Below, in pieces: positions 1,036 to 23,724 of a DNA stretch of 29,222 nt; the stretch's first letter is position 1, and each line of letters opens with the position of its first letter. This DNA is from Burkholderiaceae bacterium. Lineage in GTDB: Bacteria > Pseudomonadota > Gammaproteobacteria > Burkholderiales > Burkholderiaceae. The position numbers and the translations under genes are program-made. A model generated the notes under the pieces. The model had not been told where the DNA came from. It saw nothing but the letters and a program-made list of their open reading frames with translations, and did not search any database. The stretch is from assembly GCA_030151165.1 (NCBI GenBank), contig JASLEM010000291.1:1-29222 (forward strand). Reading direction: 5' to 3'.

Positions 1036-2607
1036 CTATGCGCCCGCGAGGTCCGGCGCGCCGAACCATCGCGCGGCGGCGGACTGGACATCGGTTGCGC
1101 CCGGCGCCTGGTCGACGGCCCAGGCGACGATGCCGTCCGGCCGCACGAGCAGCGCGGCCAGTCCGAGCGTGTCGCGCGCGCCGGCCGCCACGACGTCGAT
1201 CCGATCGCGCCAGCCGTCGGCCGCGTGTCGCAGGGCGGGCGTCGCGCCGAGGTCGACCAGCACGCCGCGGCCCGTGCGCAGATGGGTCGCGAGCCGGCTG
1301 CCGTCGTCGAACGCGAAGTCCGGCGCGCTGCGGCCGACCAGCGGGTGCGCGCCGCCCAGGTCGTAGCGCAGCGAGACGCCCCACAGCTGGCCGGCGCACC
1401 ACGTCGCGCCGTCGGGGGTGTCGATCAGGCCGCGCAGGATGCCGTCGAGGGCGCGCGCGTGGGCGTCGGGCCGCATGACGGCGGCCTGCGCGCGCGTCCA
1501 GTCCAGCACCCACTCGCCGATCGGGTGGCGCTCGGCCTGGTAGGTGTCGAGCAAGCCGGCGGGCGCGGTGCCGCGCACGGTGGCGGCGAGCTTCCAGCCG
1601 AGGTTCATCGCGTCGCCCAGCCCCGCGTTCAGGCCCTGGCCGCCGAGCGCGGAGTGGATGTGCGCGGCGTCGCCGGCCAGCAGCACGCGGCCGCGGCGAT
1701 AGGTGGTCGCCAGCCGCGCGCGATCGGTGAAGCTCGTGGCGAGGTGGACGCGCGCGAGCGTGACGTCCGTGCCCGAGACGCGCCGCAGCACCGCCTGCAG
1801 GTGCTCGCGCGTGATCGGCTGCGAGCGGTCGAAGGCGCCGCCGTCGAAGTCGGCGATCGCGATGCGGCCCGGCTCGTTCATGATGAAGCCCGCGGGCGTC
1901 GCGTTGCGGCCGGGCGGGAGCTTGCCGGGGTCGGCGATGTCGACGAGGGCCGAGTACGCGGTGAACTCCGGCTCGGTGCCGGCGAACTCGAAGCCCGCCA
2001 GCTTGCGCACGACGCTGCGGCCGCCGTCGCAGCCGACGAGCCAGCGCGCGCGGAACGAGCGGTCGCCCGCGTGCACCACGATGTCGCCGTCGCCGTCGCC
2101 GCCACCGTTGCCGTGATCGCCCTGATCGAGCCCGGTGACCGCGAGCCCGCGCCGGAGGTCGACGCCCAGCGCGACCGCACGCGTGGCGAGGACGCTTTCG
2201 ATCGAGCCCATGTCGGCCGCGAAGTTGGTGGACGCGGGGCTCGGCAGCCGATAGGGCCAGCGCGATGGGTCGACCTTGGCGGCGTCGATCGCGATGCCCG
2301 CGAAATGGCCGGCCTGCGCCTGGCGCGGCGCGCCTGCCGCGGGGCCGGGGCGCGCGCCGCGCGCGGCGTCGGCGGCGGCGAGCAGGTCGTCCAGCAAGCC
2401 GCGGCGGTCGAGCGCCTCGCCCGTCGCGACGGACAGGCCGCGCGTGCCGAGCGGGGGCCGCTTCAACGGCGCCTCGGGATGGGGGTCGCGCTCGAGGACG
2501 AGCACGTCGAGGCCCGCGAGCGCGAGTTCGCAGGCGAGGAAGAGGCCGACGGGGCCGGCGCCGGCGACGACGACGTCGTGGCGATGGAAAAGGGAATCGA
2601 CAGTCAT
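1036..2607 (-). CDS. FAD-dependent aromatic monooxygenase (PheA/TfdB-like, class A)
   Basis: This 523-aa protein has the three hallmarks of class A flavoprotein hydroxylases. There is a Rossmann dinucleotide motif GAGPVG (residues 16-21) with an acidic E39 at the end of the second strand, a DG motif in GCDGG (about 193-197), and the FAD-ribityl GD motif in LLAGDAAHIHSALGGQG (about 310-324). The C-terminal 150 residues fit the thioredoxin-like domain of the phenol hydroxylase/PCP monooxygenase group. Such enzymes hydroxylate aromatic or polyketide-like substrates with NAD(P)H and O2; the substrate cannot be told from sequence. A Gly/Asp-rich insertion at about 163-175 looks like a surface loop. 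The start ATG is preceded by a long gene-free leader. The FUSC membrane protein follows on the same strand, which would suit an aromatic-compound detoxification pair, but that is inference. Confidence 0.88.
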   Translation of the reverse strand: MTVDSLFHRHDVVVAGAGPVGLFLACELALAGLDVLVLERDPHPEAPLKRPPLGTRGLSVATGEALDRRGLLDDLLAAADAARGARPGPAAGAPRQAQAGHFAGIAIDAAKVDPSRWPYRLPSPASTNFAADMGSIESVLATRAVALGVDLRRGLAVTGLDQGDHGNGGGDGDGDIVVHAGDRSFRARWLVGCDGGRSVVRKLAGFEFAGTEPEFTAYSALVDIADPGKLPPGRNATPAGFIMNEPGRIAIADFDGGAFDRSQPITREHLQAVLRRVSGTDVTLARVHLATSFTDRARLATTYRRGRVLLAGDAAHIHSALGGQGLNAGLGDAMNLGWKLAATVRGTAPAGLLDTYQAERHPIGEWVLDWTRAQAAVMRPDAHARALDGILRGLIDTPDGATWCAGQLWGVSLRYDLGGAHPLVGRSAPDFAFDDGSRLATHLRTGRGVLVDLGATPALRHAADGWRDRIDVVAAGARDTLGLAALLVRPDGIVAWAVDQAPGATDVQSAAARWFGAPDLAGA

Positions 2608-3643: not shown

Positions 3644-4713
3644 GGGTGGACGTCTCCATGCGTCGTCGGCAGCGACTCCCCGGTGTCCAGCGCCAGCACC
3701 TGCTCGGGCCAGCGCAGCGCCGCCAGCCTCGTGCGCGGCACCACGCCCGGCGCCAGCGGCCGTTCCTGGAACCGGCCGCCGACCGAGAAGTCGACGCAGA
3801 ACACGTTGCGATGGCGCCCGTGCCACGCCGTCGGCGCGAGGTCGGTGAACAGGTTCTCGTCGGTCTTGCCGAGGGCCGCGCGGTCGACCAGCGCGAACTG
3901 GCGCCAGTAGTGGCCGACGACCACAGGCACCTCGTCCGCGTACTCGTCCCACCAGCGGATGCGCTCGACGAAGCGCCAGTGGCCGCTCGCGAAGAACGGG
4001 TGCGCGGCGCGGCGCTCGATGCCCGAGGTCACGACGCGCATCGGGTTGGCCATCTGGCGGATCTCGTCGACGGCCGCCGTGGCCTCGAGCATCGGCACGG
4101 GCTGCGACGGGTCGAGCAGGCGCTCGCGGTACTGCCGGTATTCGAGGCGCGCGGCGTCGCCGAGGCCGCGCGCGGCGACCAGCGCGGAGGCATCGTCCTC
4201 CCAGCGCACGAAGTGCTCGCGCGCCGACAGCGCCGGGTCGATCGCGCGCAGCTGCGCGACCGACGCCGCGTCCCACGCCGCGTGCACCACGCGCAGGTCG
4301 TCGCGCTCGAGCAGCAACGGCTGGCGACGCAGGAACGCGAGCACGTCGTCGCGCCGCTCCGGCTCGATGTGCACGCGCGGCTCGTACTTGCGGTCGCGCT
4401 CGCCGTACTCGCTGAAGAACCAGTCGTTGCCGTCCTTGCGGTCGCCGCGCAGCAGGTTGATCTCGTGGTTGCCGAGCGTCATGACGGCGCGGCCGCTCTC
4501 GACGAAGCCGCGCACCATCGCGATGACGCCGGGGCTGTCCGGGCCGCGGTCGCACAGGTCGCCGACGAAGACGAGCGTGCGGCCGTCGGGATGCGTGCCG
4601 TCGCCGGCGTAGCCGAGGTGGCCCAGCAGCGCGCGCAGGGCGTCGATCTCGCCGTGGACGTCGCCGACGATGTCCAGCGGGCCGGCAGGCAGGGCGGCGA
4701 ACAGGGTGCTCAT
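3640..4713 (-). CDS. Calcineurin-like metallophosphoesterase
   Basis: This 357-aa protein starts MSTLFAALPAGPLDIVGD. The dimetal phosphoesterase motifs are all visible: GDVHG (about 17-21), GDLCDRG (about 51-57), GNHE (about 81-84), a VVHAAWD histidine motif and a VVVGHYW histidine motif near residue 280. The family includes PrpE/ApaH-like protein phosphatases and dinucleoside tetraphosphatases; this protein is longer than PrpE and its substrate is unknown. The start is supported by a TATGCT hexamer exactly six bases upstream of the ATG, the geometry of a leaderless transcript, and by the absence of a Shine-Dalgarno sequence. It heads a two-gene unit with the membrane methyltransferase and is divergent from the SWIM/MoxR cassette across a 163-bp gap. 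Confidence 0.88.
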   Translation of the reverse strand: MSTLFAALPAGPLDIVGDVHGEIDALRALLGHLGYAGDGTHPDGRTLVFVGDLCDRGPDSPGVIAMVRGFVESGRAVMTLGNHEINLLRGDRKDGNDWFFSEYGERDRKYEPRVHIEPERRDDVLAFLRRQPLLLERDDLRVVHAAWDAASVAQLRAIDPALSAREHFVRWEDDASALVAARGLGDAARLEYRQYRERLLDPSQPVPMLEATAAVDEIRQMANPMRVVTSGIERRAAHPFFASGHWRFVERIRWWDEYADEVPVVVGHYWRQFALVDRAALGKTDENLFTDLAPTAWHGRHRNVFCVDFSVGGRFQERPLAPGVVPRTRLAALRWPEQVLALDTGESLPTTHGDVHP

Positions 4714-4726
4714 GGCGCCAGCATAC
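4714..4726 (-). promoter_or_regulatory. Candidate leaderless promoter (-10 TATGCT) for the phosphatase gene
   Basis: Read on the minus strand the sequence is GTATGCTGGCGCCATG, where the last ATG is the start codon. The TATGCT hexamer ends six bases before the A of ATG, so transcription would begin at or next to the start codon. The same 16 bases occur at the esterase gene start near 20049. No clear -35 is visible. Confidence 0.5.
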
Positions 4727-4824
4727 GTGGGTCGGCGTCGTTCGCGCCGACGCCGGCGCGACGCTCGCGCCGAACATGGTGGAAATCCCCGGTTTCGCGC
4801 GCCGGGGTCGTCGCGGCGCTCTCG

Positions 4825-4830
4825 TAGACT
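4825..4830 (+). promoter_or_regulatory. Weak -10 candidate for the SWIM/MoxR/VWA cassette
   Basis: TAGACT lies 46 bases before the SWIM start codon in the only gap upstream of the cassette. No convincing -35 hexamer is present at 16-18 bp, so this is only a candidate. The Shine-Dalgarno AGGGAG at 4861-4866 is much clearer and fixes the ATG at 4877. Confidence 0.25.
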
Positions 4831-4876
4831 GGGAACCGGATCGACCACAACGACATCTGCAGGGAGACGGGCCGGC

Positions 4877-6241
4877 ATGACGCTGACCTTGGAGGAAGTG
4901 ACCGCACTGGCACCGGACGACGCGTCGGCGAAGGCCGCGCGCGGCCTCGTCGCGCCGTCGAAGTGGCCGCTGCTCGGCGCGAACGACGACGCGGCCTGGG
5001 GCGAATGCCAGGGCAGCGGTTCGAAGCCGTACCAGACGCAGGTCGACCTCGCGGGGCCGGCCTTCCGCTGCTCGTGCCCGAGCCGCAAGTTTCCCTGCAA
5101 GCACGGGCTGGCGCTGCTGATGTTGCGCGCGCAAGAGCCGGCCCGCTTCGCTTCCACCGAAGCGCCGGCCTGGGTCGCGGAGTGGCTGGCGTCGCGCAGC
5201 GAGAAGGCGCAGAAGAAGGACGTGAAGCAGGCCGTGAAGGCCGCGGCGCCGGCCGATCCGCAAGCGGCGATCCGGCGCGAAGGCCAGCGCTGGCAGCGCA
5301 TCGACGCGGCGGCGGTCGACCTGCAGCGCTTCCTCGCCGACGTCCTCGCGCGCGGCCTCGGCTCGCTCGATGCCCAAGCGCTCAGGACCTGGGCCACGAC
5401 AGCGGCCCGCATGGTCGACGCGCAGGCGCCCGGCCTCGGCGCGCGGCTGCAGGACGTCGCCGCCGGCGTGCGCCGCGGCGAGCACTGGCCGGAGCGCACG
5501 TTGCACGGTCTCGGCCTGCTGCAGCTCGCCTGCGACGCGCTCGCGCGCCGCGAGACGCTGTCCCCGACGCGCCAGGCCGACCTGCGCACGCTGGTCGGCT
5601 GGCCGCACGACCAGACCGAGGTCGCGGCCGCCGGCGAGCGCCTCGCCGATCGCTGGTGCGTGCTGGGCCTCGCGATCGAGGAGCGCGCGAACAAGCTCAC
5701 GGAGCGCCGCGTCTGGCTGCGTGGGCAGCGCAGCGGTCGCTTCGGCTGGATGCTCGATCACGCGTTCGCCGGTCGCGGCTTCGAGCAGGCCTGGATCGCC
5801 GGCACCGCCGTCGACGCCACGCTCGCGTTCTTCCCAGGCGCCAGCCCGTTGCGCGCGATCGCGCTCGAACGGGGCGCGGCGTCGGCGAACGACGAGGTCG
5901 GCGCGTGGTGGCAAGGCGGCGGCGCCGGGATGGCTCGCACCGATGCGTGGCAGGACGTCGCCGAGCGCGTCGCGGCCTGCCCGTGGGCCGCGCTGCATCC
6001 GGTCGTCGTCGGTGGCGCGGTGGTCGATCACGACGGCGGCCACCTCCGGCTCGTGCGCGACGCCGACGCCTGGCCGATGGCCCTCGGCGACGCCGACGTC
6101 TGGCGCCTGCTCGCCTGCACCGGCGGCGCGCCGGTGACGCTCGCCGGCGAGTGGGACGGCACGGCCGTCCGCCCGCTGGCCGCCTGGAGTTCGGCGCCCG
6201 GCGGCGGTACCGCGCCGCTGTGGACACGGGAGGCCGCATGA
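4877..6241 (+). CDS. SWIM zinc-finger protein, first gene of the MoxR/VWA cassette
   Basis: The 454-aa protein has a SWIM zinc-binding motif near its N-terminus: C65-x-C67-x6-C74-x-H76 within FRCSCPSRKFPCKHGLALL. SWIM domains bind zinc and mediate DNA or protein contact. The rest is alpha-helical and Trp-rich, with no enzyme motif I recognise. The start ATG has a good AGGGAG ribosome binding site ten bases upstream. The stop overlaps the start of the next gene in ATGA, so translation is coupled. Genes of this type are usually found as the first member of a SWIM/DUF5691/AAA/DUF5682/VWA cluster, which is exactly the order here. The molecular role is unknown; a sensor or adaptor that recognises the target of the ATPase complex is one possibility. 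Confidence 0.87.
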   Translation: MTLTLEEVTALAPDDASAKAARGLVAPSKWPLLGANDDAAWGECQGSGSKPYQTQVDLAGPAFRCSCPSRKFPCKHGLALLMLRAQEPARFASTEAPAWVAEWLASRSEKAQKKDVKQAVKAAAPADPQAAIRREGQRWQRIDAAAVDLQRFLADVLARGLGSLDAQALRTWATTAARMVDAQAPGLGARLQDVAAGVRRGEHWPERTLHGLGLLQLACDALARRETLSPTRQADLRTLVGWPHDQTEVAAAGERLADRWCVLGLAIEERANKLTERRVWLRGQRSGRFGWMLDHAFAGRGFEQAWIAGTAVDATLAFFPGASPLRAIALERGAASANDEVGAWWQGGGAGMARTDAWQDVAERVAACPWAALHPVVVGGAVVDHDGGHLRLVRDADAWPMALGDADVWRLLACTGGAPVTLAGEWDGTAVRPLAAWSSAPGGGTAPLWTREAA

Positions 6242-7884
6242 CGCAGGCCACGCCCGCGTGGGCGCCGTTGATGCCGGTGGCGATGGTGGGCACCGATCGC
6301 CATGCCGGGCCGATGCCCGCCTGGCCGGGCGAGATCGGCGCGGCCATCGCGGCACTCGCGTCGGCGCGGCGCCCGGCCGACCTGCCGCCCGACATCGACC
6401 AGGCCGCGGCCGGCGTGCTGCGAGCCGCCGCGATCCTCGCCACCTGCGGGATGGCGGGCGCGCGCCCGATGCGCGCGGCGCTCGCCGCCTCGCGCGAAGC
6501 CGCGGCCGTCGACGCGAACCCCACGCTCGCCGACCCCGCCGTCGAACGCTGGCTGGCCTGGGCCTTGCGCGACGGCCCCGACCGGTTGAAGCAGGCCTTC
6601 CTCGTGCGCCTCGGCCAGGCCGGGCTGCGGCTGCCGGCGGTGCTGTTGCCGGCGGCGCTCGAGCTCGCGCGCCACTCGCTCGCCCTGCGCACGACGATCC
6701 AGCCGTTGCTGGGCGAACGCGGCGTCTGGCTTGCGCGGCAGCGCGAGGACTGGCAGTTCGCAGCCGGCGTGGCGGCGGCGGACGACGACGAGCGCACATG
6801 GAGCGAGGGCACGCTGGAGCAACGCAAGGCCTTCTTCGCGGCGCAGCGCCGGCGCGACCCGGCCGGCGCCCGCGCACGCCTCGTCGCGGCATTGCCCGAG
6901 ATGCCCGCCCGGGAACGCGCCGACCTGGCGCGCGGCCTCGCGATCGGACTCGGGCCCGACGACGAAGCGCTGCTCGACCAGTTGCGCGGCGACCGCAGCC
7001 AGGACGTCCGCGCCGCCGCGCTCGATCTGCTGCTGCGCCTGCCCGACTCGGGCCACGCGATGCGCGCGGCCGCGAGGCTCGCGGCGCTGATGTCGCGCGG
7101 CTCGTTGCTCACCGGCCGCCGCTGGATCATCGAGCCGCCCGCGCAGCCGGCGGACGACTGGAAGGCCGACCAGGTCGAGGCCGCGGTGTCGGCCGGCGTG
7201 AGTGCCGGGCTGAAGGGCGAACGCGCGTGGTGGCTCCATCAACTGGTGCGCCAGGTGCCGCTCGCCTGGTGGACATCGCACACGGGCATGAGCGTCGCCG
7301 ACATCGCCGCCTGGGCCGACCGCGGCGACTGGGCCGAGGCGCTGTGGACCGGCTGGCGCGATGTGCTGCGCGCCGCCCCCGATCGCGCCTGGGCGGAGGC
7401 CTTGCTGGACGACTGGCCCGAACCTTCGGCACCGGGCGCGCCCGGACGTCCCTCGCGCGCCGTGCTGGGGGATCGCAGCCTCGTGCTGTGGGTCGTCGCG
7501 CCCGAGGTCCGCGAGCGCCATTTCGAGCGGCGGCTGAAGTCGGCCGACGCGCCGCTCGCGACGCAGGTGCTCGACATCGCCGCCGGCTGCGCGCCGGGCG
7601 AGACGGTGTCCGCGCGCCTCGCGCCGCTGATGGTGGCGCGCGTCAAGGCGGCGCTCGCTGCCACCCTGCCCGCCGATGCCGCAGCCCGGCAAGCCGCGGC
7701 CTCGAGCCAGGACGCCGTCGGCCGCTGCCTGGCCGAGCTCTGCTGCGTGCTGCCGCTCGCGTCGCTCGCCGACTTCGACGACTGGCCCTCCTCGCCCGAC
7801 GAATCCGCCGCCATCGGCCGGGCCCGCCACGAAAGCCGGCAGATCATCCAGGCGCGCCGCGCGCTGGATGCGTTCCTTCCCTGA
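6238..7884 (+). CDS. DUF5691-type alpha-helical repeat protein
   Basis: This 548-aa, Ala/Leu/Trp-rich protein begins MTQATPAWAPLMPVAMVGTD. It is predicted mostly helical, with paired helices that resemble HEAT-like repeats, for example SQDVRAAALDLLLRLPDSGH at about 255-275. No catalytic motif is apparent. The assignment to DUF5691 rests on its position between a SWIM protein and a MoxR ATPase, its length and its general character; I could not run a profile search. The start overlaps the SWIM stop by four bases (ATGA). It could be a scaffold for the neighbouring ATPase, but that is inference only. Confidence 0.75.
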   Translation: MTQATPAWAPLMPVAMVGTDRHAGPMPAWPGEIGAAIAALASARRPADLPPDIDQAAAGVLRAAAILATCGMAGARPMRAALAASREAAAVDANPTLADPAVERWLAWALRDGPDRLKQAFLVRLGQAGLRLPAVLLPAALELARHSLALRTTIQPLLGERGVWLARQREDWQFAAGVAAADDDERTWSEGTLEQRKAFFAAQRRRDPAGARARLVAALPEMPARERADLARGLAIGLGPDDEALLDQLRGDRSQDVRAAALDLLLRLPDSGHAMRAAARLAALMSRGSLLTGRRWIIEPPAQPADDWKADQVEAAVSAGVSAGLKGERAWWLHQLVRQVPLAWWTSHTGMSVADIAAWADRGDWAEALWTGWRDVLRAAPDRAWAEALLDDWPEPSAPGAPGRPSRAVLGDRSLVLWVVAPEVRERHFERRLKSADAPLATQVLDIAAGCAPGETVSARLAPLMVARVKAALAATLPADAAARQAAASSQDAVGRCLAELCCVLPLASLADFDDWPSSPDESAAIGRARHESRQIIQARRALDAFLP

Positions 7885-7906
7885 ATCCAACCCACCGAGA
7901 CACGTC

Positions 7907-8998
7907 ATGACCGCCTCCACCGCTTCCGTGATGCGCCAGCACGCAGAGCACCAGTTCGCCGAGGAACTGGCCGAGCTGCGCCGCCAGGACACGCGCGCCC
8001 GCCCCGGCAACTGGGTGCTGTCGCCGTGGGCGGTCGTGCGCTACCTGATGGGGGGCACGCTCGAGAACGGCTTCGAAGTCAGCGCCAAGTACATCGGCGA
8101 CGCGCGCCTGATGGAGATCGCCGTCGCGACGATCGCCACCGACCGCGCGCTGCTGCTGTACGGCGTTCCCGGGACGGCGAAGTCCTGGGTCTCCGAGCAT
8201 CTCGCGGCCGCGATCAGCGGCGACTCCACGATGCTGATCCAGGGCACCGCCGGCACCAGCGAGGAGCAGCTGCGCTACGGCTGGAACTACGCGCAGCTGC
8301 TGGCGAACGGGCCGTCCGAGAAGGCCCTCGTGCCGAGCCCGATGATGAACGCGATGCGGCTCGGCAAGATCGCGCGCGTCGAGGAGCTCACGCGCATCCC
8401 GGCCGACGTGCAGGACAGCCTGATCACGGTGCTTTCCGAGAAGACGCTGCCGATCCCGGAGCTCGCGTCCGAGGTGCAGGCGGTGCGCGGCTTCAGCGTC
8501 ATCGCCACGGCCAACAACCGCGACAAGGGCGTCAACGAACTGTCGGCCGCGCTCAAGCGCCGCTTCAACACGGTGGTGCTGCCGGTGCCGGCGAGCGAGG
8601 AAGACTAGGTCGCGATCGTCGTGAAGCGCGTGGCGGAGATGGGCGTCGCGCTGCAGCTGCCCGCGGAGCCGCCGGCGCTCAAGGAAGTGCGGCGCATCGT
8701 GCAGATCTTCCGCGAGCTGCGCGGCGGCAAGACCGCCGACGGCAAGACGCAGGTGAAGTCCCCGAGCTCGACGCTTTCCACCGCCGAGGCGATCTCCGTC
8801 ATCAACAGCGGGATGGCGCTCGCGGGCCACTTCGGCGACGGCGTGCTGCGTCCGCACGACATGGCGTCCGGCCTGATCGGCGCGGTGATCAAGGATCCGG
8901 TGCAGGACAAGGTCGTCTGGAACGAGTACCTCGAGACCGTCGTCAAGGAGCGCGACGACTGGAAGGATCTGTACCGCGCGTTCCGCGACATGGCCTGA
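7907..8998 (+). pseudogene. MoxR-type AAA+ ATPase interrupted by an in-frame TAG
   Basis: The first 233 residues (7907-8608) hold the AAA core. They include Walker A GVPGTAKS (86-93), a degenerate Walker B in ARVEELTRIPADVQDSL (156-172), sensor 1 in SVIATANNRD (about 197-206) and an arginine finger in ALKRRFN (about 215-221). A TAG at 8606-8608 then stops the frame. The same frame continues directly afterwards with the C-terminal lid, VAIVVKRVAEMG to the TGA at 8996-8998; the first ORF start after the stop is the GTG at 8621. Read through, the protein would be 363 aa, a normal size for this family. No frameshift is needed; a single G-to-T change (GAG to TAG) restores it. MoxR ATPases work as hexamers with VWA partners to remodel or activate client proteins. 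Here the lid would be lost or made as a separate 125-aa fragment. A sequencing error remains possible. Confidence 0.85.
8606..8608 (+). other. In-frame amber codon in the MoxR ATPase gene
   Basis: The codons around it read GCG AGC GAG GAA GAC TAG GTC GCG ATC GTC. The residues before (PASEED) and after (VAIVVKRVAEMG) form one continuous MoxR-like segment, where an acidic residue is expected at the stop position. Both halves keep the codon bias of their neighbours, so any mutation would be recent. A GTG at 8621 could restart translation, but no Shine-Dalgarno precedes it. Confidence 0.85.
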
Positions 8999-9015
8999 CG
9001 CACCGGCCCGTCGTC

Positions 9016-11631
9016 ATGGATGCGAACGACATCGACGCGGCGGCGCCGCCGCTGCTGCCGCCACTGTCCGGGCGGGCGGATGCCACGCCCGCCGCCGAAC
9101 GCCGGCCTGGTGGCGCGACGCACTGGTTCGGCATCCGCCACCACGGCCCGGGTTGCGCGCGCAGCCTGGGGCGCGCGCTCGACGAGCTCCAGCCGGATTG
9201 CGTGCTGGTCGAGGGGCCACCCGAGGCCGACGCGCTACTCGGCTTCGTCCTCGATGAAGCCATGCGCCCGCCGGTCGCGCTGCTGGGCTACTGCCCGGAC
9301 GAGCCGCGGCTGGCCGTCTATCACCCGTTCGCCACGTTCTCGCCCGAGTGGCAGGCCTTGCGCTGGGCGGCCGCACACGGAGCAACCACCCGCTTCATCG
9401 ACCTGCCGCTGGCGCACGAGCTGGCGTTCGAGAAGGCGGCCCGCGACGCGAGGAAGGCCGCCGCCGAGGCTGCCGAAGCGGCGGCCGCAACGGCCGAAGG
9501 CGATGCCGGCGCCGCCGACGGCAACGCGAGCGCCGACACGGAAGCAGGCGCCGACACCTCCGCCCACGCGTCGCCCGTCATCGATGTCGGTGCCGATGTG
9601 GATGCTGACGTCGACCGCGAGCCGGGCGGCGTCGCGACGACGGCCGCGGCGGACGACGCCGACGACGCGCTCGGCCACCGCGATCCGCTCAGCTGGCTCG
9701 CGCGCGCCGCGGGCTACGACGACGGCGAATCGTGGTGGAACCACATGGTCGAGGAACGGGCCGACGGTGCGGAGCTGTTCGAGGCGATCGCGACGGCGAT
9801 GACCTCGCTGCGCGCAGAGATCGGCGACCGCCACGCGACGCCCGAGGCCGCGCGCCGCGAGGCGCAGCGCGAGGCCCACATGCGCCAGTGCGTGCGCGCG
9901 GCGCAGAAGGAAGGCTTCGAGCGCATCGCCGTCGTCTGCGGCGCCTGGCACCTGCCCGCGTTGCGCGACGGCGTCGCGGCCAAGGGCCGGTCGAAGGACG
10001 ACACCGCGCTGCTCAAGGGCCTGCCGAAGGTGAAGGTGCAGTCGACGTGGGTGCCGTGGACGTACCGGCACCTCACGCGTGCCAGCGGCTACGGCGCGGG
10101 CATCGCGTCGCCCGGCTGGTACGAGCACCTCTGGAACACGCACGAGGCGCCGGGCAGGCGCGCGACCGGCTGGCTGGCGCGCGTCGCGCGACTGATGCGC
10201 GAGCGCGAGCTCGATTGCTCGTCGGCCCACCTGATCGAGGCGGCGCGCCTGGCCGACACGCTCGCCGCGCTGCGCGAGCGCCCGGCGCCCGGCCTGCCCG
10301 AGCTGGACGAGGCCAGCCGCACCGTCCTGACCATGGGCGACGATGCCGCGCTGCGGTTCATCCGCGACGCGCTGGTGGTGGGCGACCATCTCGGCGCCGT
10401 GCCGGCCGCGGTACCGACGGTGCCGCTGCAGCGCGACGTCGAAACCCTGCAGAAGCGGCTGCGGCTCAAGCCCGAAGCGCTGCAGAAGACGCTCGATCTC
10501 GACCTGCGCAACGACAACGACCTCGCCCGCAGCCACCTGTTGCACCGGCTCAACCTGCTCGAGGTGCCCTGGGGCAGGGTCGCGAAGGTGGGGCGCGCGG
10601 CGCGCGGCACCTTCCACGAGATCTGGTCGCTGCAATGGCAGCCCGAGTTCGCGCTGCGCCTGATCGAGGCGAGCGTGTGGGGCCAGACGCTCGAACAGGG
10701 CGCCACCGCGCGCGCCATCGCGCGCTGCGCCGAGGCGCGCAACCTGGGCGAGCTGTCCGCGCTGGTCGACCAGGCCTTGCTGGCCGATCTCGATGTCGCC
10801 GTCGCCACCGCGACGAAGGCGCTGGAGGATCGCGCCGCGCTGACCGGCGACGCCGCGCAGTTGCTCGCGACGTTGCCACCGCTGGCCAATGTGTTCCGCT
10901 ACGGCAACGTGCGGCAGACCGATGCGACGCTCGTCGCGCACGTGCTGGACAGCCTGGCGCTGCGGTCGGCGATCGGCCTGCCCGTCGCCTGTTCCGGCAT
11001 CGACGACACCGCCGCCGAGACGCTGCGCGGGCTCGTGCTCGCGGCCCATGCGGCGATCGCGCTGCGCGACGGCGAAGAAGCCACCGCGCGCTGGCGCCAC
11101 GCCCTCGGCCAGGTCGCCGACCAGGCCGGCGCGCACGAGTTGCTGAAAGGCATCTCGACGCGGCTGCTGCTGGACGTCGGCGACTGGTCGGCCGACGATG
11201 CGGCGCGCGCGATGTCGCTGAACCTGTCCGCGGGCGCCGAGCCCGCGCGCGCGGCGGCATGGCTCGAGGGCTTCCTCAATCGCAACGCCGTGGTGCTGCT
11301 GCACGACGCGACGGTGTGGTCGATCGTCGACGACTGGCTCACCCGCCTGACGCACGACCACTTCGTCCACGTGCTGCCGCTGGTGCGCCGCACGTTCGCG
11401 GCGTTCGCGGCGACCGAGCTGCGCGACCTGTCCCAGAAAGCGAAGCAGGCCGCGGCGTCGAGGCCGGGCGCCAACGCGTCTCGCGAAGCCTCGACCGCAA
11501 CCCACGATGCCGGCGAGAGCACGATCGCCGCATGGGACACCGCCCGCGCCGCGCTGCCGCTGCCGCTGCTGCGCGACCTGCTGGGGATCGCGCCGACCGC
11601 GTCCCCGGCGTCCTCCGACGGAGCCGCCTGA
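9016..11631 (+). CDS. DUF5682-type protein with TIKI/TraB/EreA-like motifs
   Basis: The protein has 871 aa. The N-terminal 320 residues contain THWFGIRHHGPGCARSL (35-51), CVLVEGPPEADALL (62-75), a REAHMRQCV motif (285-293) and VVCGAWHLPAL (307-317). The order G-x-x-H, E-G, R-x-x-x-M, G-x-x-H resembles the erythromycin esterase/ChaN/TraB/TIKI superfamily, whose His and Glu residues form the active site; this link is my inference. A low-complexity Ala/Asp/Glu linker (about 143-220) interrupts the domain. The C-terminal two-thirds is helical without recognised motifs. It starts 17 bases after the ATPase gene and its TGA overlaps the VWA ATG (TGATG), so it belongs to the same operon. It could be the effector of the cassette, but no experiment is known to me. 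Confidence 0.82.
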   Translation: MDANDIDAAAPPLLPPLSGRADATPAAERRPGGATHWFGIRHHGPGCARSLGRALDELQPDCVLVEGPPEADALLGFVLDEAMRPPVALLGYCPDEPRLAVYHPFATFSPEWQALRWAAAHGATTRFIDLPLAHELAFEKAARDARKAAAEAAEAAAATAEGDAGAADGNASADTEAGADTSAHASPVIDVGADVDADVDREPGGVATTAAADDADDALGHRDPLSWLARAAGYDDGESWWNHMVEERADGAELFEAIATAMTSLRAEIGDRHATPEAARREAQREAHMRQCVRAAQKEGFERIAVVCGAWHLPALRDGVAAKGRSKDDTALLKGLPKVKVQSTWVPWTYRHLTRASGYGAGIASPGWYEHLWNTHEAPGRRATGWLARVARLMRERELDCSSAHLIEAARLADTLAALRERPAPGLPELDEASRTVLTMGDDAALRFIRDALVVGDHLGAVPAAVPTVPLQRDVETLQKRLRLKPEALQKTLDLDLRNDNDLARSHLLHRLNLLEVPWGRVAKVGRAARGTFHEIWSLQWQPEFALRLIEASVWGQTLEQGATARAIARCAEARNLGELSALVDQALLADLDVAVATATKALEDRAALTGDAAQLLATLPPLANVFRYGNVRQTDATLVAHVLDSLALRSAIGLPVACSGIDDTAAETLRGLVLAAHAAIALRDGEEATARWRHALGQVADQAGAHELLKGISTRLLLDVGDWSADDAARAMSLNLSAGAEPARAAAWLEGFLNRNAVVLLHDATVWSIVDDWLTRLTHDHFVHVLPLVRRTFAAFAATELRDLSQKAKQAAASRPGANASREASTATHDAGESTIAAWDTARAALPLPLLRDLLGIAPTASPASSDGAA

Positions 11632-12818
11632 TGGATACGGACCAGGAACGCGAACGACTGGCCCGGTGGCGCCTCGTGATCGGCAACGAGGCCGAGGCTG
11701 CGTGCGGCTCGCTCGCCGGGGCGGCGATCGACATGGACCAGGCGCTAACGGCGCTCTACGACGCGCAAGGCCAGGCCGGAGGCCTCGGGGGTGGCAAGGG
11801 GCGCGGAGGCCGCGGGGCTTCGCAACCGAGCGTCGCGCGCTGGCTGGGCGACATCCGCAAGTATTTCCCGAGCTCGGTCGTGCAGGTGATGCAGCACGAC
11901 GCGCTGCAGCGGCTCAACCTGCGCGAGATGTTGCTGCAGCCCGAGATGCTGCGCAGCGCGCAGCCGGACGTGCATCTCGTCGCGAGCCTGATCGCGTTGT
12001 CGCGCGTGATTCCGGCCGGCACGAAGGACACCGCGCGGCAGGTGGTGCGGCGCGTCGTCGACGACCTGATGAAGCGCCTCGAGGAACCGATGCGCTCGGC
12101 GATCAGCGGCGCGCTCGATCGCAGCCAGCGCAACCGCCGCCCGCGCCATGCCGAGATCGACTGGCACCGCACGATCCGCGCCAACCTCCGGCACTGGCAG
12201 CCGGCGTACCGCACCGTGGTGCCCGAGACGCTGCACGGCTACGGCCGCAAGGCGCGCAAGCCCCAGCGCGAGATCATCCTGTGCATCGACCAGAGCGGCT
12301 CGATGGCGAACTCCGTCGTCTACGCGAGCATCTTCGGCGCGGTGATGGCGTCGCTGCCGGCAGTGTCGACACGGCTCGTCGTCTTCGACACCGCCGTCGT
12401 CGATCTTTCCGACCAGCTCGACGACCCGGTCGAACTGCTCTTCGGCGTACAACTGGGCGGCGGCACCGACATCGACGGGGCCGTCAGTTACTGCGAGTCC
12501 ATCATCCGCGAGCCGCGCAACACGATCCTCGTGCTGATCTCCGACCTGTACGAAGGCGGCGTCGAGGCCAACCTGCTGCGGCGCGCGATGGCGCTCGTCG
12601 AAAGCGGCGTCCAGTGCATCACGCTGCTGGCGCTCAGCGACGAGGGCCGGCCCGCGTACGACCATGCCCTGGCAGCGAAGCTCGCCGCGATCGGCATGCC
12701 GTCGTTCGCCTGCACGCCGGACGCCTTCCCCGCGCTGATGGCCGCCGCGATCCGACGCGACGACGTCGCGGAATGGGCCGCGGCGAACGGCCTGGTGAAC
12801 AGCCCGAACGCGCGCTGA
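11631..12818 (+). CDS. VWA-domain protein with intact MIDAS, MoxR partner
   Basis: This 395-aa protein has a helical N-terminal half with a Gly-rich linker at about 49-62, then a von Willebrand factor A domain. The metal-ion-dependent adhesion site is complete: DQSGSM (220-225), GGGTDI with T279, and SDLYEGG with D305. VWA proteins of this kind pair with MoxR AAA+ ATPases and bind clients through the metal site. The start ATG at 11631 shares bases with the stop of the upstream DUF5682 gene. It is the last gene of the cassette; the tautomerase that follows has its own ribosome binding site and looks independent. The gene itself is intact although the ATPase gene is broken. Confidence 0.88.
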   Translation: MDTDQERERLARWRLVIGNEAEAACGSLAGAAIDMDQALTALYDAQGQAGGLGGGKGRGGRGASQPSVARWLGDIRKYFPSSVVQVMQHDALQRLNLREMLLQPEMLRSAQPDVHLVASLIALSRVIPAGTKDTARQVVRRVVDDLMKRLEEPMRSAISGALDRSQRNRRPRHAEIDWHRTIRANLRHWQPAYRTVVPETLHGYGRKARKPQREIILCIDQSGSMANSVVYASIFGAVMASLPAVSTRLVVFDTAVVDLSDQLDDPVELLFGVQLGGGTDIDGAVSYCESIIREPRNTILVLISDLYEGGVEANLLRRAMALVESGVQCITLLALSDEGRPAYDHALAAKLAAIGMPSFACTPDAFPALMAAAIRRDDVAEWAAANGLVNSPNAR

Positions 12819-12920
12819 GCGGACGTCGCGAACGGACGCCCCTTGTCCTCCCCGCCCGCCGGCCTCGAAACCCGCGCCGCCGACGTCGCCGGCGCTTCTC
12901 CTGGAGAATCGGCGCACACC

Positions 12921-13351: not shown

Positions 13352-15850
13352 TCACTTTCCCGGCAGCGTCCGGATCAGCTCGATCAGGCCCTCGACGTCC
13401 ACCGGCTTGACGAAGTGATGGTCGAAGCCGGCCTCCGCGGAGCGCCGGCGATCCTCGTGCTGGCCCCAGCCGCTGAGCGCGATCAGCGAGACGTCCTCGC
13501 CCCCGGGCAGCGCGCGGATCTCGCGGGCGGCCTCGAGGCCGTTCATCTTCGGCATGCCGATGTCCATCAGCACGATGGACGGCCGCCAGGTGCGCACGCG
13601 CTGCACGGCGTCGACGCCGTCGTGCACCGTCGCGACGTGGAAGCCGAGCATCTGCAGCACCTGCGCCAGGCTCTCGGCGGCGTCGACGTTGTCGTCGACC
13701 ACCAGCAGCCGCTGGCCGTTCGTGGGCTCGGCGGCGAGCGCGTGGCCGGCGGCCGGCTCGGTGCGCGTCGCGGTGTCGCGGATCAGCGGCAGCCGCACGA
13801 CGAAGGTGCAGCCCAGGCCGGCCCCTCCGCTCGCCGCGGTGACGCTGCCGCCGTGCATGTCGACGAGCCGCTTCACCAGCGCGAGCCCGATGCCCAGGCC
13901 GCCCTGCGAGCGTTCCATCGAGCGGTCGACCTGCGCGAACATGTCGAACACGCGCGGCAGCATGTCCTTCGCGATGCCGATGCCCGAGTCGACGACGCTG
14001 ATCACCGCCTCGTCGCCCTCGCGTCCCGCCGACACCTGGATGTGGCCGCCCGCCGGCGTGTACTTGGCGGCGTTGTTCAACAGGTTCGCGATGATCTGGC
14101 TGAGGCGCGTGACGTCGGCGTCGACGAGCAGCGCGCGCGGCGGCGCCAGCTTCAGCGTGAGGTCGTGCCGGCCGGCGTCGATCAGCGGGCGGCTGGTCTC
14201 GACGGCGGTCATCACGACGTCCGACACGTCCGCCTGCTCGAGCCGCAGTTCGACCTTGCCCTGGCTGATGCGGCTGACGTCGAGCAGGTCGTCGACGAGG
14301 TGCACCATCTGGCGCAGCTGCCGCTCGATGATCTTGCGCGCGTTCTCGTGCATCGCCTCGTCGCGCGTGAGGTGCATCAGCTGCACCGCGTTGCGGATCG
14401 GCGCGAGCGGGTTGCGCAGCTCGTGCGCGAGGGTCGCGAGGAATTCGTCCTTGCGCACGTCGGCGTCGCGCAGCGCGGCCTCGATGTGCTTGCGCGCGGT
14501 GATGTCCGCGATGATGCCGAGGAAGCGCAGGCGGGCGGCGTCCGACGCGTCGACGCTGGCCGACACGTACGCGCTGCCGTGCACGTCGATCCAGTGCACG
14601 CTGCCGTCGGGCCAGACGACGCGGCAGTCGAACTCGATGTCCTCGCGCGACTCGAAGCAGCGCGCCACGAGCGCGCGCACGCGCTCGCGGTCGCCCTCGT
14701 GCACGTGCGCCAGCAGCATGTCGAGGTTCCATCCGGGCACCGGCGCGTCGTAGCCGAAGCAGCGGTCGTACAGCGAAGAATGGCGGCACGCGCCGGTCGC
14801 GACGTCGATCTCCCACTCGCCCACGTGCGCCGCCGCGAGCGTGAACTCGAGCCGCGTCTTGCTCTCGCGCAGGGCGGCGTCGATGGCCTCCTGGTCGGTG
14901 ATGTTGGACGCGATCGACAGCACCGACTCGACGCTGCCGTCCGGCGCGAACTCGGGGATCAGGCGCGACGAGAACACCAGCGGCGTGCCGTCGGCGCCCG
15001 TGAAGCGGAACTTGATGCGGTCGACCTGCCCGGTCGCGAAGACGCGCTCGAACACGCCGGCCCATTCGTCGCACAGATCCGCGGGCATGCCCAGCTCGCG
15101 GTTCGTCCGGCCGATGTGCGCGGCCGCGGGGATGCCGCTGTAGCGCTCGATCACCGGGCTCACGTAGAGATGGCGCAGCTGGCGATCCATGCGCGCGAAG
15201 ATGTCCGGCGCGTTCTCGACCAACGTCGCGAACTGGCGCTCGCGCTGCGCCAGCGCCGCGGCGGACTCGGCCAGCGTGGCCTGTGCGCGCACGCGCTCGC
15301 CGACGTCGCGGATCACGGCGAGCACGCCCAGCGGATGCTGCGCCGTGTCCTTCAGCAGCGACAGCGTCGACTCGACGTTCAGCTCGCGTCCGTCCATGCA
15401 CACGTGCACCGATTCGTAGCGATAGCTGCCGAGCGTCTGCAGGTGTTCGCGCGCGTGCGACGCGTGGCGCGCGTCGGGCCAGCGCTCCTGGTACAGCTCG
15501 CTGCGCGGCCGGCCGAGCATCTGCGACGCGTCGCAGCCGTACTGCGCCTCGGCCGCCGGGTTCATGAAGATCAGGTGGCCGCCTTCGTCGAACGCGAGCA
15601 CGGCGTCCTGCATCTGCGCGAGCACGCCCTTGCGCATCTCGTTGCTCGCGGCGTTGGCCGAGTCGAGCGTGTAGATGTCCTCGCCGACGATCAGCGCGTC
15701 CACGTCACCGTCGCGGATCGCCGCGAGCGTGTCCTCGGCCTCGTGCAGGCGAAGCTCGGCGTCGGCGAGCGCGCGCCGCAGCCGCGCGAGTTCGCCGTCC
15801 GGATCCGGCGCCGCGCCGGACGGCTCGCGATCGAAGGCGTCCGCACTCAT
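13352..15850 (-). CDS. PAS hybrid histidine kinase of the Kai operon
   Basis: The 832-aa protein has no membrane segment, so it is cytosolic. In order it has a short coiled coil with DTLAAIRDGDVDALIVGE (about 40-57), a PAS domain (about 75-185), a second PAS (about 205-320), a PAS_3-like domain (about 330-455), HisKA with H476 in FLATLAHELRNPLAPI, a HATPase with an NLLNNAAKYTP N-box and G-boxes, and a C-terminal receiver domain with D763 in VLMDIGMPKMNG. All phosphorelay residues are present. The first PAS-linked segment is typical of kinases encoded next to kaiC in non-cyanobacteria. It starts 25 bases after kaiB2 in the same direction. It probably reads or reports the KaiC state. It lacks the KaiB-like sensor domain of SasA, so the way it touches KaiC is unknown. 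Confidence 0.92.
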   Translation of the reverse strand: MSADAFDREPSGAAPDPDGELARLRRALADAELRLHEAEDTLAAIRDGDVDALIVGEDIYTLDSANAASNEMRKGVLAQMQDAVLAFDEGGHLIFMNPAAEAQYGCDASQMLGRPRSELYQERWPDARHASHAREHLQTLGSYRYESVHVCMDGRELNVESTLSLLKDTAQHPLGVLAVIRDVGERVRAQATLAESAAALAQRERQFATLVENAPDIFARMDRQLRHLYVSPVIERYSGIPAAAHIGRTNRELGMPADLCDEWAGVFERVFATGQVDRIKFRFTGADGTPLVFSSRLIPEFAPDGSVESVLSIASNITDQEAIDAALRESKTRLEFTLAAAHVGEWEIDVATGACRHSSLYDRCFGYDAPVPGWNLDMLLAHVHEGDRERVRALVARCFESREDIEFDCRVVWPDGSVHWIDVHGSAYVSASVDASDAARLRFLGIIADITARKHIEAALRDADVRKDEFLATLAHELRNPLAPIRNAVQLMHLTRDEAMHENARKIIERQLRQMVHLVDDLLDVSRISQGKVELRLEQADVSDVVMTAVETSRPLIDAGRHDLTLKLAPPRALLVDADVTRLSQIIANLLNNAAKYTPAGGHIQVSAGREGDEAVISVVDSGIGIAKDMLPRVFDMFAQVDRSMERSQGGLGIGLALVKRLVDMHGGSVTAASGGAGLGCTFVVRLPLIRDTATRTEPAAGHALAAEPTNGQRLLVVDDNVDAAESLAQVLQMLGFHVATVHDGVDAVQRVRTWRPSIVLMDIGMPKMNGLEAAREIRALPGGEDVSLIALSGWGQHEDRRRSAEAGFDHHFVKPVDVEGLIELIRTLPGK

Positions 15851-16175: not shown

Positions 16176-16532
16176 CTATCGGAGCGGCTGGACGTCGAGA
16201 CCGACCAGCACGCGCTCTTCGTTGGACAGGTCGCCGATGATCTTGCGGATCGGCTCCGGGAACTTGCGCACCAGCGTCGGCACCGCGAGGATCTGGTCGC
16301 CTGCCGCGAGCCGCGGGTTGACGAGCAGGTCGACGACCTCGATCGAGTAGCGGCCCGCGAGGTGTTCCTCGCAGACCCGCTTGAGGTTGTCGAGCGCGGC
16401 GATCGACTTCGCGGTCTCGCCGGCGACGTACAGCCGCAGCTGCCACTCGGCCGGGCCGCCCTTGCGCGCGGTGTCGTTCGCGGCGTCGCCGGCGGGGTCC
16501 GCCGGCTTGGTCTTCGTGGCCTTGGCGTTCAC
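16176..16532 (-). CDS. kaiB: KaiB-family protein, first copy, with N-terminal extension
   Basis: This 118-aa protein starts at a GTG that overlaps the kaiC stop in GTGA, so translation is coupled to kaiC. The first 30 residues are a Lys/Ala/Asp-rich, probably disordered tail. The KaiB core follows: [18 protein letters not shown], the [16 protein letters not shown] strand, [20 protein letters not shown] and [17 protein letters not shown]. The PxPxRxxIGD block matches canonical KaiB. A longer open frame runs upstream through kaiC in another frame and is spurious. It is the copy more similar to the cyanobacterial consensus, so it is the likelier direct KaiC partner. Confidence 0.92.
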
Positions 16533-18346
16533 TTCGCACCTCTCCCGGTCTTCTTCGGCGCCGCGTCGACGACGGGGCGCGGCTTCGGCGGCGGCACGTC
16601 GCGCGAGCGCGCGAGCGACTTCGACCGGCTCGTCAGCCCTTCGGCCAGCAGCGTCTCCCGCTCGATTTCGAACTCGACGTCGCCTGCGCGCTCGTCGGCC
16701 TGCGCGTTGAGCGCGGCGATCTGCGCGTCGATCGCCTTGCGGTGGTTCGCGAGCTCCTTGAGGCGGCGCTCGTGGTCGCGCTGGCGCAAAGCCGTCGCTG
16801 CGTTCTCCTGCGCTTCCTGTGCGACGCGCGCGGTGCCGGTGAGCACCTTGTCGCCCGACAGGTAGACGTCCACGAGGTCCACGCCGTGGTCGCCCATCAC
16901 GAACTCGCGCACCTGGTGCGAATGCGGCATGCCGCGCGACTTCAGCACCTGCAGCGTGCGCGTGCGCTCGCCGTTGGCGGCGACGTTGGACAGCAGGATC
17001 CAGGTGTCCATCAGCGACGAGACGCCGACCTGCGAATCCGCCACGTCCTCCATGCCGCCCCGGGTCAGGCTCGTGAACAGCGCGGTGACGCCCTGCTGCT
17101 TGAGGAAGTCGATCAGGCGCATCAGCGTCGGCTTGAGCGACGCGTCGTCGTGGTGGATCGTGAGGTTGCTGATCGGGTCGACCACCACCACCGAGGGCTT
17201 CAGGTCGCGCACGGTGCGGTACATGTGGACGAGATGCTGCTCGAGGCCGTGCAGCGTCGGGCGCGAGGCGTCGATGTGCAGCAGGCCGGCCTTCTCCCAC
17301 TGCGCGAGGTCGATGCCGATCGAGCTCATGTTGCGCTTCAGCTGGCTCGCCGACTCCTCGTAGGCGAACAGCAGCGCGCGCTCGCCGCGCCGGCAGGCCG
17401 CGTCGACGAAGCTCGCGCCCACGCTGCTCTTGCCGGTGCCCGGCGCGCCGGAGACCAGCGCGCTGCTGCCGCGGAAGACGCCCGCGCCGCTCAGCATGTC
17501 GTCGAGCCCCTCGATGCCGGTGCCGACGCGCTCGCCGCTGGCCTGGTGGTCGAGCCGCATCGACGTGATGGGCAGCACCGCGACGCCGTCGGCCGCGATC
17601 AGGAACGGGTATTCGTTGGTGCCGTGCGCGGTGCCGCGGTACTTGACCACGCGCAGCCGGCGCGTCGAGACCTGGTCGACGATGCGGTGGTCGAGCAGGA
17701 TCACGCAGTCGGCGACGTACTCCTCGAGCCCGTAGCGCGTCAGCGACTGGTCGCCGCGCTCGCCGGTGATCACCGCCGTGACGCCGCGATCCTTCAGCCA
17801 GCGGAACAGGCGCCGCAGCTCGGCGCGCAGCACGGCGTGGTTCGGCAGGCCGGAGAACAGCGCCTCGAGCGTGTCGAGCACCACGCGCTTCGCGCCGATC
17901 GAGTCGATCGCGTAGCCGAGGCGGATGAACAGGCCCTCGAGGTCGTACTCGCCGGTCTCCTCGATTTCGTTGCGCTCGATGTGCACGTGGTCGACGGCGA
18001 TCTTCCTGTCACGCTGCAACTGCTCCAGGTCGACGCCGAGCGAGCGCAGGTTCTGCGCGAGCTCGTCGGCGCTCTCCTCGAACATCATGAAGACGCCCGG
18101 CTCGTCGAACTGCGTCGCCCCGCGCACGAGGAATTCGGCCGCGAGCATCGTCTTGCCGGAGCCGGCCGAACCGCACACCAGCGTCGGCCGGCCGCGCGGC
18201 AGGCCGCCTTCGGTGATCTCGTCGAGGCCCGGGATGCCCGTCGCGGCCTTGGGCAGCGTCGGGGCGATCGTGGAGGCAGCGGTTGCCGCGGTTGTCGACG
18301 ACTTGGCTTTCGAGTCCGCGGTCTTGGAGGTCTTGGAGCGTGCCAT
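16529..18346 (-). CDS. kaiC: KaiC-family double RecA-domain ATPase
   Basis: At 605 aa this is longer than cyanobacterial KaiC (519). The CI domain has Walker A GSAGSGKT (59-66) and catalytic Glu pair E90-E91 in [10 protein letters not shown]. The CII domain has Walker A GAPGTGKS (300-307) and E330-E331 in [10 protein letters not shown]. The phosphorylation segment reads [16 protein letters not shown], which puts S443-S444 where Synechococcus KaiC has Ser431-Thr432. Two serines there resemble the KaiC2 type. There is an N-terminal basic tail of about 35 residues and a C-terminal charged, probably coiled-coil tail of about 85 residues. KaiC is an ATPase and autokinase; here it heads an operon with two kaiB genes and a hybrid kinase. 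A 271-bp gap to the divergent small-protein gene must hold its promoter, but I see no clear -35/-10. Confidence 0.93.
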
Positions 18347-18617
18347 CAGTCGTGTTCCCAGGGCTTTCGTGCTGGAGGAGGGGGGCAATGGATCGGGGCG
18401 CGGCGGACCGGAAGGTCGCCGCGCGAGCGACTTAGGCAACCAGTGTGCCCGGCAGCGGGTGGACGTTCGATCCGCCCTCCTGTCGAGTTCGCAGCCCGCA
18501 CGGGCCGGCGCGGAAGAACTTGCTGAAACTGTCGCCCCGCGCGGGAAAACCCGTCGCGCATGCCTTACCATTTCGCGCCACAGCCCTTTCCACCCACCAT
18601 CCCTGACGGAGCCCCCC

Positions 18618-18761
18618 ATGGCCAAGGAACAACGCGCCAGCAAGAACACCAAGAAGCCGAAGAAGGACGCCCCGCCGCCGAAGGCCGCCGGCGCGGATCG
18701 CCCGACGGCGCCGGTGACCAGCGTCGCCCCGAAGGGCAAGCTGGCGAAGAAGCTGGCTTGA
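18618..18761 (+). CDS. 47-aa Lys/Pro/Ala-rich basic protein
   Basis: The reading frame is MAKEQRASKNTKKPKKDAPP, then an Ala/Pro-rich stretch, ending GKLAKKLA and a TGA. Nine or so lysines make it strongly basic and probably disordered. The ATG follows GGAG at 18608-18611 at a normal spacing. Very similar short MAKEQR...NKKPKK proteins are widely annotated as hypothetical in betaproteobacteria, which is why I accept this frame although it is short. Its function is unknown; a nucleic-acid-binding or ribosome-associated role would fit its charge. It is divergent from kaiC and 64 bases upstream of the MOSC gene. Confidence 0.75.
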   Translation: MAKEQRASKNTKKPKKDAPPPKAAGADRPTAPVTSVAPKGKLAKKLA

Positions 18762-18825
18762 CGGCCCTGCGAGGCGGCGGCCCGCGCCCGGCGCCTCGCG
18801 ACCACGACGTGCCGGACGGGCGGCG

Positions 18826-22492: not shown

Positions 22493-22587
22493 GGTGGCGG
22501 GCGGGTTGTGCAGGGGTGGCGTGCAGCGAACGCCTGCCGGCAGCATACTGCGCGCAGCCCCGATCCCGCGACCGCGAAAGGCCCGCC

Positions 22588-23724
22588 ATGCCCGACCATC
22601 CCCGCACCGGACTGCAACTGCGCTCGCTCGTGACGCCCGAGGGCGACCTGCGGCTGTCGCTCGAGACCGTCGAGGTGCCGCTGCCGCGCGCCGACGAGGT
22701 CATCGTGCGCATCGAGGCCACGCCGATCAACCCGTCCGACCTCGGCGTGCTGCTGGGCGCGGCGGATCCGGCGACGGCGGTGCTGTCCGGCACGGCCGAC
22801 CACCCGGTCGCGACGCTGCGCATCCCCGAGGCGGCGCGCGCCTCGATGAAGGTACGCGCCGGCAACTCGATGCCGGCGGGCAACGAGGGCGCGGGGATCG
22901 TGGTCGCGGCCGGGTCGTCCGACGCGGCGCAGGCGCTGATGCGCCGGCCGGTCGCGGTGCTGGGCGGCGCGATGTACTCGCACTTCCGCTGCGTGGCCGC
23001 CGCCGACTGCCTGCCGCTGCCCGAAGGCACGACACCGGTCGACGGCGCGTCGGCGTTCATCAACCCGTTGACGGCGCTCGGGATGGTCGAGACGATGCGC
23101 CGCGAGGGCCATCGCGCGCTGGTGCACACGGCGGCGGCGTCCAACCTCGGCCAGATGCTCAACCGGCTGTGCCTGCAGGACGGCGTGGCGCTGGTCAACA
23201 TCGTGCGCAAGCCCGAGCAGGTGGCGCTGCTGCGCGAGCAGGGCGCCGCGCACGTCGTCGACAGCGGATCGCCCGCGTTCATGGCCGAGCTGACCGACGC
23301 GTTCACCGCGACCGGCGCGACGCTCGCGTTCGACGCCACCGGCGGCGGCCAGCTCGCGAGCCGGATCCTGTCGGCGATGGAGGCGGCGCTCGCGAAGACG
23401 ACGCCCGTCCTCGGCCGCTACGGCACGTCGACGCACAAGCAGGTCTACCTCTACGGCGGGCTCGACACCTCGCCGACCGAGATCGTGCGCAACTTCGGCA
23501 TGTCCTGGGGCGTGGGCGGCTGGCTCGTGTTCCCGTTCCTGCAGAAGCTCGGCGCCGAGCGGGCGGCGGCGCTGAAGGCGCGCGTCGCGGCCGAGCTGAA
23601 GACGACGTTCCGCAGCCACTACTCGCGCGAGGTGTCGCTCGCCGAGGCGCTGCAGCCGGCCAGCATCGCGGCCTACGGCCGGCGCGCGACGGGCGAGAAA
23701 TTCCTCATCAACCCATCGCGCTGA
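22588..23724 (+). CDS. Zinc-independent MDR oxidoreductase (quinone-reductase-like)
   Basis: This 378-aa protein belongs to the medium-chain dehydrogenase/reductase superfamily. The N-terminal GroES-like domain includes DEVIVRIEATPINPSDLG (about 33-50) and GNEGAGIVVAAG. The nucleotide-binding domain has ALVHTAAASNLGQML in place of the usual GxGxxG-bearing AAxxGVG motif, the arrangement seen in quinone oxidoreductase-type members. The cysteine cluster of zinc alcohol dehydrogenases is missing, so no catalytic zinc is expected. It probably reduces enones or quinones with NAD(P)H. A GAAAGG ribosome binding site at 22576-22581 supports the ATG at 22588. The TetR gene follows after 72 bases on the same strand. 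Confidence 0.88.
   Translation: MPDHPRTGLQLRSLVTPEGDLRLSLETVEVPLPRADEVIVRIEATPINPSDLGVLLGAADPATAVLSGTADHPVATLRIPEAARASMKVRAGNSMPAGNEGAGIVVAAGSSDAAQALMRRPVAVLGGAMYSHFRCVAAADCLPLPEGTTPVDGASAFINPLTALGMVETMRREGHRALVHTAAASNLGQMLNRLCLQDGVALVNIVRKPEQVALLREQGAAHVVDSGSPAFMAELTDAFTATGATLAFDATGGGQLASRILSAMEAALAKTTPVLGRYGTSTHKQVYLYGGLDTSPTEIVRNFGMSWGVGGWLVFPFLQKLGAERAAALKARVAAELKTTFRSHYSREVSLAEALQPASIAAYGRRATGEKFLINPSR

Follow-up and report, generated by a model that had tools for sequence, protein, structure and literature searches.

The window, as we call the whole stretch of DNA analysed here (29,222 nucleotides of a Burkholderiaceae bacterium, contig JASLEM010000291.1 of assembly GCA_030151165.1), carries a five-gene cassette in the order SWIM / DUF5691 / MoxR / DUF5682 / VWA. 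The gene order and partner families of the cassette are all in place, and the MoxR gene, which is third, is interrupted by an in-frame TAG. Two relatives recur below: L001, a 20.7-kb locus of Scleromatobacter humisilvae and the nearest relative found (the best among the loci found), and P0001, the closest listed intact homologue of the MoxR protein. The features are as follows.

1036..2607, minus strand: FAD monooxygenase gene with TAG as its own terminator (Pfam FAD_binding_3 and Rng_hyd_C, reaching residue 518 of 523)
4670..6241, plus strand: SWIM zinc-finger protein gene (Pfam SWIM, 3.5e-5), frame open
6271..7884, plus strand: DUF5691 protein gene, start approximate (Pfam PF18944, 3.4e-101), no internal stop
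7907..8608, plus strand: core part of the MoxR AAA+ ATPase up to the in-frame TAG, 233 aa (Pfam AAA_5, 3.8e-37; 94% identity to P0001)
8606..8608, plus strand: in-frame TAG, codon 234, where nearly all relatives examined have Glu (translation and relatives' alignments)
8609..8998, plus strand: lid (small helical domain), the same frame continued for 129 codons plus TGA, not decayed (dN/dS 0.044 against L001; 59 of 59 invariant lid sites kept)
9016..11631, plus strand: DUF5682 protein gene (Pfam PF18934, 4.1e-260), no internal stop
11640..12818, plus strand: VWA (CoxE-like) protein gene with DxSxS, start approximate (Pfam VWA_CoxE, 2.2e-51)

Elsewhere in the window there is a KaiC-type double ATPase on the minus strand (16529-18805; PRK09302, 716.8 bits), beside which lies a hybrid sensor kinase with PAS domains (13352-15850, minus strand). 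Between 22014 and 23762, long open frames run on both strands with no Pfam match among the families scanned, and the plus-strand frame at 22516-23724 has a quinone_pig3 match of 56.7 bits, far below the cut-off.

The four partner genes of the MoxR gene contain no internal stops over the ranges tested, in keeping with the original prediction that the rest of the cassette is intact. The SWIM gene aligns with L001 from window residue 56 on, and its true start is probably further in, at some candidate start up to 4877. That prediction also credited the VWA protein with a full MIDAS; the DxSxS element was indeed found, as DQSGS, while the further Thr and Asp, which we take to be those of GGTDID and SDLYEG, were read by eye in the translation. 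Apart from a short break, DNA similarity between the window and L001 is continuous over 4767-12822, that is, over the cassette itself, and the flanks have no DNA match. Matches to the MoxR gene at E<=1e-60 are patchily distributed: among 399 genomes sampled from the order 12 have one, and among 398 from the phylum 15 do, the genome of L001 being counted both times. Core relatives were also present on 29 plasmid records (best identity 73%), and the five genes may move together as one unit.

The MoxR frame runs from ATG 7907 to TGA 8996-8998 and comprises 233 residues, the TAG at 8606-8608, which is codon 234 of 363, and then 129 residues. All 1092 bases of the gene pair with a stretch of the same length in L001's genome (G001) at 90% DNA identity, and its 362 codons (with X at the stop) align to 1086 bases of that genome in one frame with 95% protein identity; hence, there is no frameshift, and the claim that an amber codon splits a single MoxR-like sequence is borne out. 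The core has an AAA_5 match of 127.8 bits over residues 82-220, placing it among AAA core proteins, and contains what we take to be the Walker A (GVPGTAKS) and Walker B (VEE) motifs. Among NCBIfam models, the core matched only MadB_ATPase, far below the cut-off, and the lid had no match. The window gene descends from the MoxR family, and its product as read is without the C-terminal helical lid, which the TAG cuts off and which the 89 distinct relatives described below possess in the same polypeptide.

The position of the stop relative to the domain boundary was assessed on an AlphaFold2 model of P0001 rather than of the window product. Mean pLDDT was 82.3 but dropped to 50-66 near residues 210-230; across the five models it spanned 82.3 to 63.5. 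The helix at 231-249, the first to follow the last core helix (208-222), has residue 234 in its fourth position. In the model, therefore, the TAG sits no more than a few residues from the core-lid boundary at which it was originally placed. The fold resembles that of solved MoxR proteins, an observation that belongs to the intact homologue and not to the window product; in a sequence search of solved structures with P0001, Midasin and NorQ chains were the sole hits at E<=0.001.

Aligning close relatives at the TAG codon, a check suggested at the outset, shows how strongly this site is conserved. All 120 homologous proteins listed, out of 8000 scored, have Glu as residue 234; the position is otherwise invariant in a 31-sequence alignment, and it is Glu at 88 of 89 distinct homologous loci with a lid, the remaining locus being a homologue of 44% identity with Thr. 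These loci derive from 111 with a tblastn match to P0001, of which 18 were left out as reversed or as ending before residue 330, and the remaining 93 became 89 after duplicates were merged. The MoxR gene is free of internal stops at all 89. The same holds for 55 distinct genome matches at E<=1e-60 (distinctness counted by hand), drawn from searches of overlapping sets that comprised 299 genomes at family, 399 at order and 398 at phylum level and gave 35, 14 and 16 such matches with at most 5 or 6 candidates scored per genome; many genomes supplied both counts, so that the 55 and the 89 are not independent. A much weaker match, G135, at 31% identity, contains one TGA.

The sequence beyond the stop has been preserved as well as the sequence before it. 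Compared with L001, the lid has dS 0.397, dN 0.0174 and dN/dS 0.044, and the core has dS 0.385, dN 0.0273 and dN/dS 0.071; GC3 is 0.96 on both sides of the TAG. Invariant sites were defined over 54 distinct loci with at least 80% identity to P0001, L001 left out, as those where at least 52 of the 54 have a residue and all of these agree. The window keeps all 189 other invariant sites (130 in the core, 59 in the lid), and its sole departure is codon 234 itself. By a rough hand calculation that gives the window branch half of dS, a lid free of constraint over a fraction f of that branch would have accumulated about 58f amino-acid changes in 290 sites; at most 5 are seen, which bounds f below about one fifth. 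An old pseudogene was rejected on the dN/dS values and the retained invariant sites. Because the part after the stop has not decayed, these sequence comparisons indicate that the lesion is either very young or an error, and an undecayed lid fits a young stop, a base error and a bypassed stop alike.

Similar cassettes are found in other bacteria. By alignment, L001 has the same five genes in the same order, with a MoxR protein 95% identical to that of the window, and Escherichia coli SMS-3-5 (L114) has the same five genes in the same order as annotated, its MoxR protein having 284 of 364 residues in common with P0001; unlike that of the window, both MoxR genes are uninterrupted. E. coli K-12 places the MoxR ATPase YehL in a row with a VWA protein (YehP) and a SWIM protein (YehQ), as yehL-yehM-yehP-yehQ, but the K-12 stretch shown has no annotated DUF5691 gene and its SWIM gene is last. 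A global alignment of K-12 YehL with P0001 contains 146 identical positions, and we label the window gene as putatively YehL-type. In the excerpted text of PMC3893208, YehL is one of seven MoxR subfamilies, and evidence to date is said to suggest chaperone-like roles in the maturation of specific protein complexes. The MoxR-vWA ternary conflict systems of Kaur et al. 2020 (PMC7159879) have, in the text excerpted, a MoxR and vWA chaperone pair in common with the window, and the word SWIM is absent from that text. Membership of a MoxR-vWA-beta-propeller ternary system was rejected, since the bpMoxR match of the window core (core piece only) is 22.8 bits against a Pfam cut-off of 27; as a counterpoint, PF20030 is among the precomputed domains of some listed relatives. 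In the open-licence PubMed Central literature we found no paper on DUF5682, alone or with MoxR, or on MoxR with a SWIM zinc finger.

A close form of this MoxR gene is carried by 30 of 5426 E. coli genomes. Two of the 30, e1-39 and EC17CM2, carry an identical shortened MoxR protein, WP_023141628.1 (L116:4979-5776 and L117:5001-5798), beside which SWIM, DUF5691, DUF5682 and VWA genes are annotated with no pseudogene flag; the other 28 were judged by their annotated product, a plain ATP-binding protein. When aligned, the e1-39 locus (L116) shows an in-frame deletion of 297 bases, which takes out the latter half of the core and the first part of the lid. As in the window, a broken MoxR gene lies in an otherwise intact-looking cassette, although the lesion in E. 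coli is an internal in-frame deletion and that in the window is a stop codon. Since two E. coli genomes carry a shortened MoxR in this cassette, the motor gene does get broken while its partners remain open.

We consider it probable that the window records a recent and ordinary nonsense inactivation of the cassette's motor. Of the options first put forward, that the cassette has just lost its motor is the best fitting, given that relatives are intact, the cassette is otherwise open and the lid is undecayed. The event would have been a single, very recent nonsense substitution at the conserved Glu at the start of the lid in a YehL-type MoxR AAA+ ATPase gene. Translation would end after 233 residues, giving a truncated product that retains the nucleotide-binding core without the lid. 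In general, AAA+ ATPases need the lid for hexamer assembly and ATP turnover. This strain would thus lack the MoxR motor, which would remodel substrates together with its VWA partner, and polarity from the 390 untranslated bases may lower expression of the DUF5682 and VWA genes. Some function could remain in the truncated product.

In the chief competing reading, the TAG arose as an error of sequencing, library preparation or assembly, or stands for a minority allele that entered the consensus, and the organism has an intact gene. We regard this as unlikely, yet deserving of real weight: the window may stem from a metagenome or a draft assembly, the MoxR gene has no other decay and the cassette has this one lesion only. 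On the other side, the site lies outside any homopolymer and a random change seldom makes a stop (in the other 362 MoxR codons, 3258 single-base changes are possible and 84 of them do so), although real mutations face equal odds. It is very doubtful that the stop is read through or suppressed, by an amber suppressor tRNA or local recoding, such that full-length MoxR is still made. Full constraint on the lid would be expected if this were so, but the TAG is absent from all 89 distinct relatives, no tRNA gene lies in the window, and the FAD monooxygenase in the same window also ends in TAG, five residues past its C-terminal Pfam domain. The last observation likewise led us to reject general reassignment of TAG, which is unlikely even though one TAG-ended gene is thin evidence; among 16 frame ends listed, 14 are TGA and two are TAG, namely those of the FAD monooxygenase and codon 234.

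The original prediction also allowed that translation from GTG 8621 yields the lid as its own protein, and to this may be added ATG 8639 as a start, the lid then joining the core in trans as a split MoxR. This is highly improbable. Scarcely credible is its stronger form, a naturally split MoxR in which two chains from adjacent, nearly abutting frames assemble in trans and lid supply acts as a switch on the motor. A split would account for the conserved lid frame and for a stop that, in the model, falls within a few residues of the boundary between core and lid, but no relative examined has a stop there (0 of 89 loci). GTG 8621, 12 bases past the stop, corresponds to GTC (codon 239) in L001, which is no start codon, and a start there would, on the model, forfeit the first residues of the first helix of the lid. 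Its anti-SD score of -3.3 (-2.7 at the usual spacing) is near the background median of -2.6, taken from 400 random cassette positions with a 25% point of -4.4 and a 10% point of -5.9. For ATG 8639, the upstream 20 bases reach -5.4, which puts them in the top 10-25% of background; this match, however, runs right up to the ATG, and at the usual spacing the score is only -1.5. The start codon of MoxR itself gets no better than -3.0, so that the test has little power in this genome. For GTG 8621, therefore, the earlier suggestion fared poorly on the L001 codon, the helix, the stop-free relatives and, with that low power, the anti-SD score.

Proteins consisting of the lid are present in databases: 1336 of 1353 candidates are lid-like, and 120 of them were listed. 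Five of these 120 begin exactly at residue 235, right after the stop position, which would suit a split, but implied starts are scattered from residue 138 to 245, and only 10 of the 116 with contig size given sit on contigs above 10 kb. Thirty-eight of the 120 have fewer than 160 residues; the first residue is M, V or L in 37 of these and A in the other. Most of the listed lid-only proteins look like truncated gene calls or contig-edge fragments. Four MoxR proteins without part or all of the core (P0143, P0157, P0171 and P0221) occur on contigs of 26 kb to 2 Mb, and could be broken, miscalled or genuinely split copies.

Recent nonsense loss, the reading we prefer, involves neither a new kind of gene nor anything that requires a new mechanism. 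As a single case on one contig it is ordinary. It shows the look of a young nonsense lesion, with one stop, no decay and intact relatives, and it gives one more example of a broken MoxR gene in this little-studied cassette whose partner genes stay open. This hints that, in some strains, the cassette may be dispensable, or that loss of its motor may be tolerated or even favoured.
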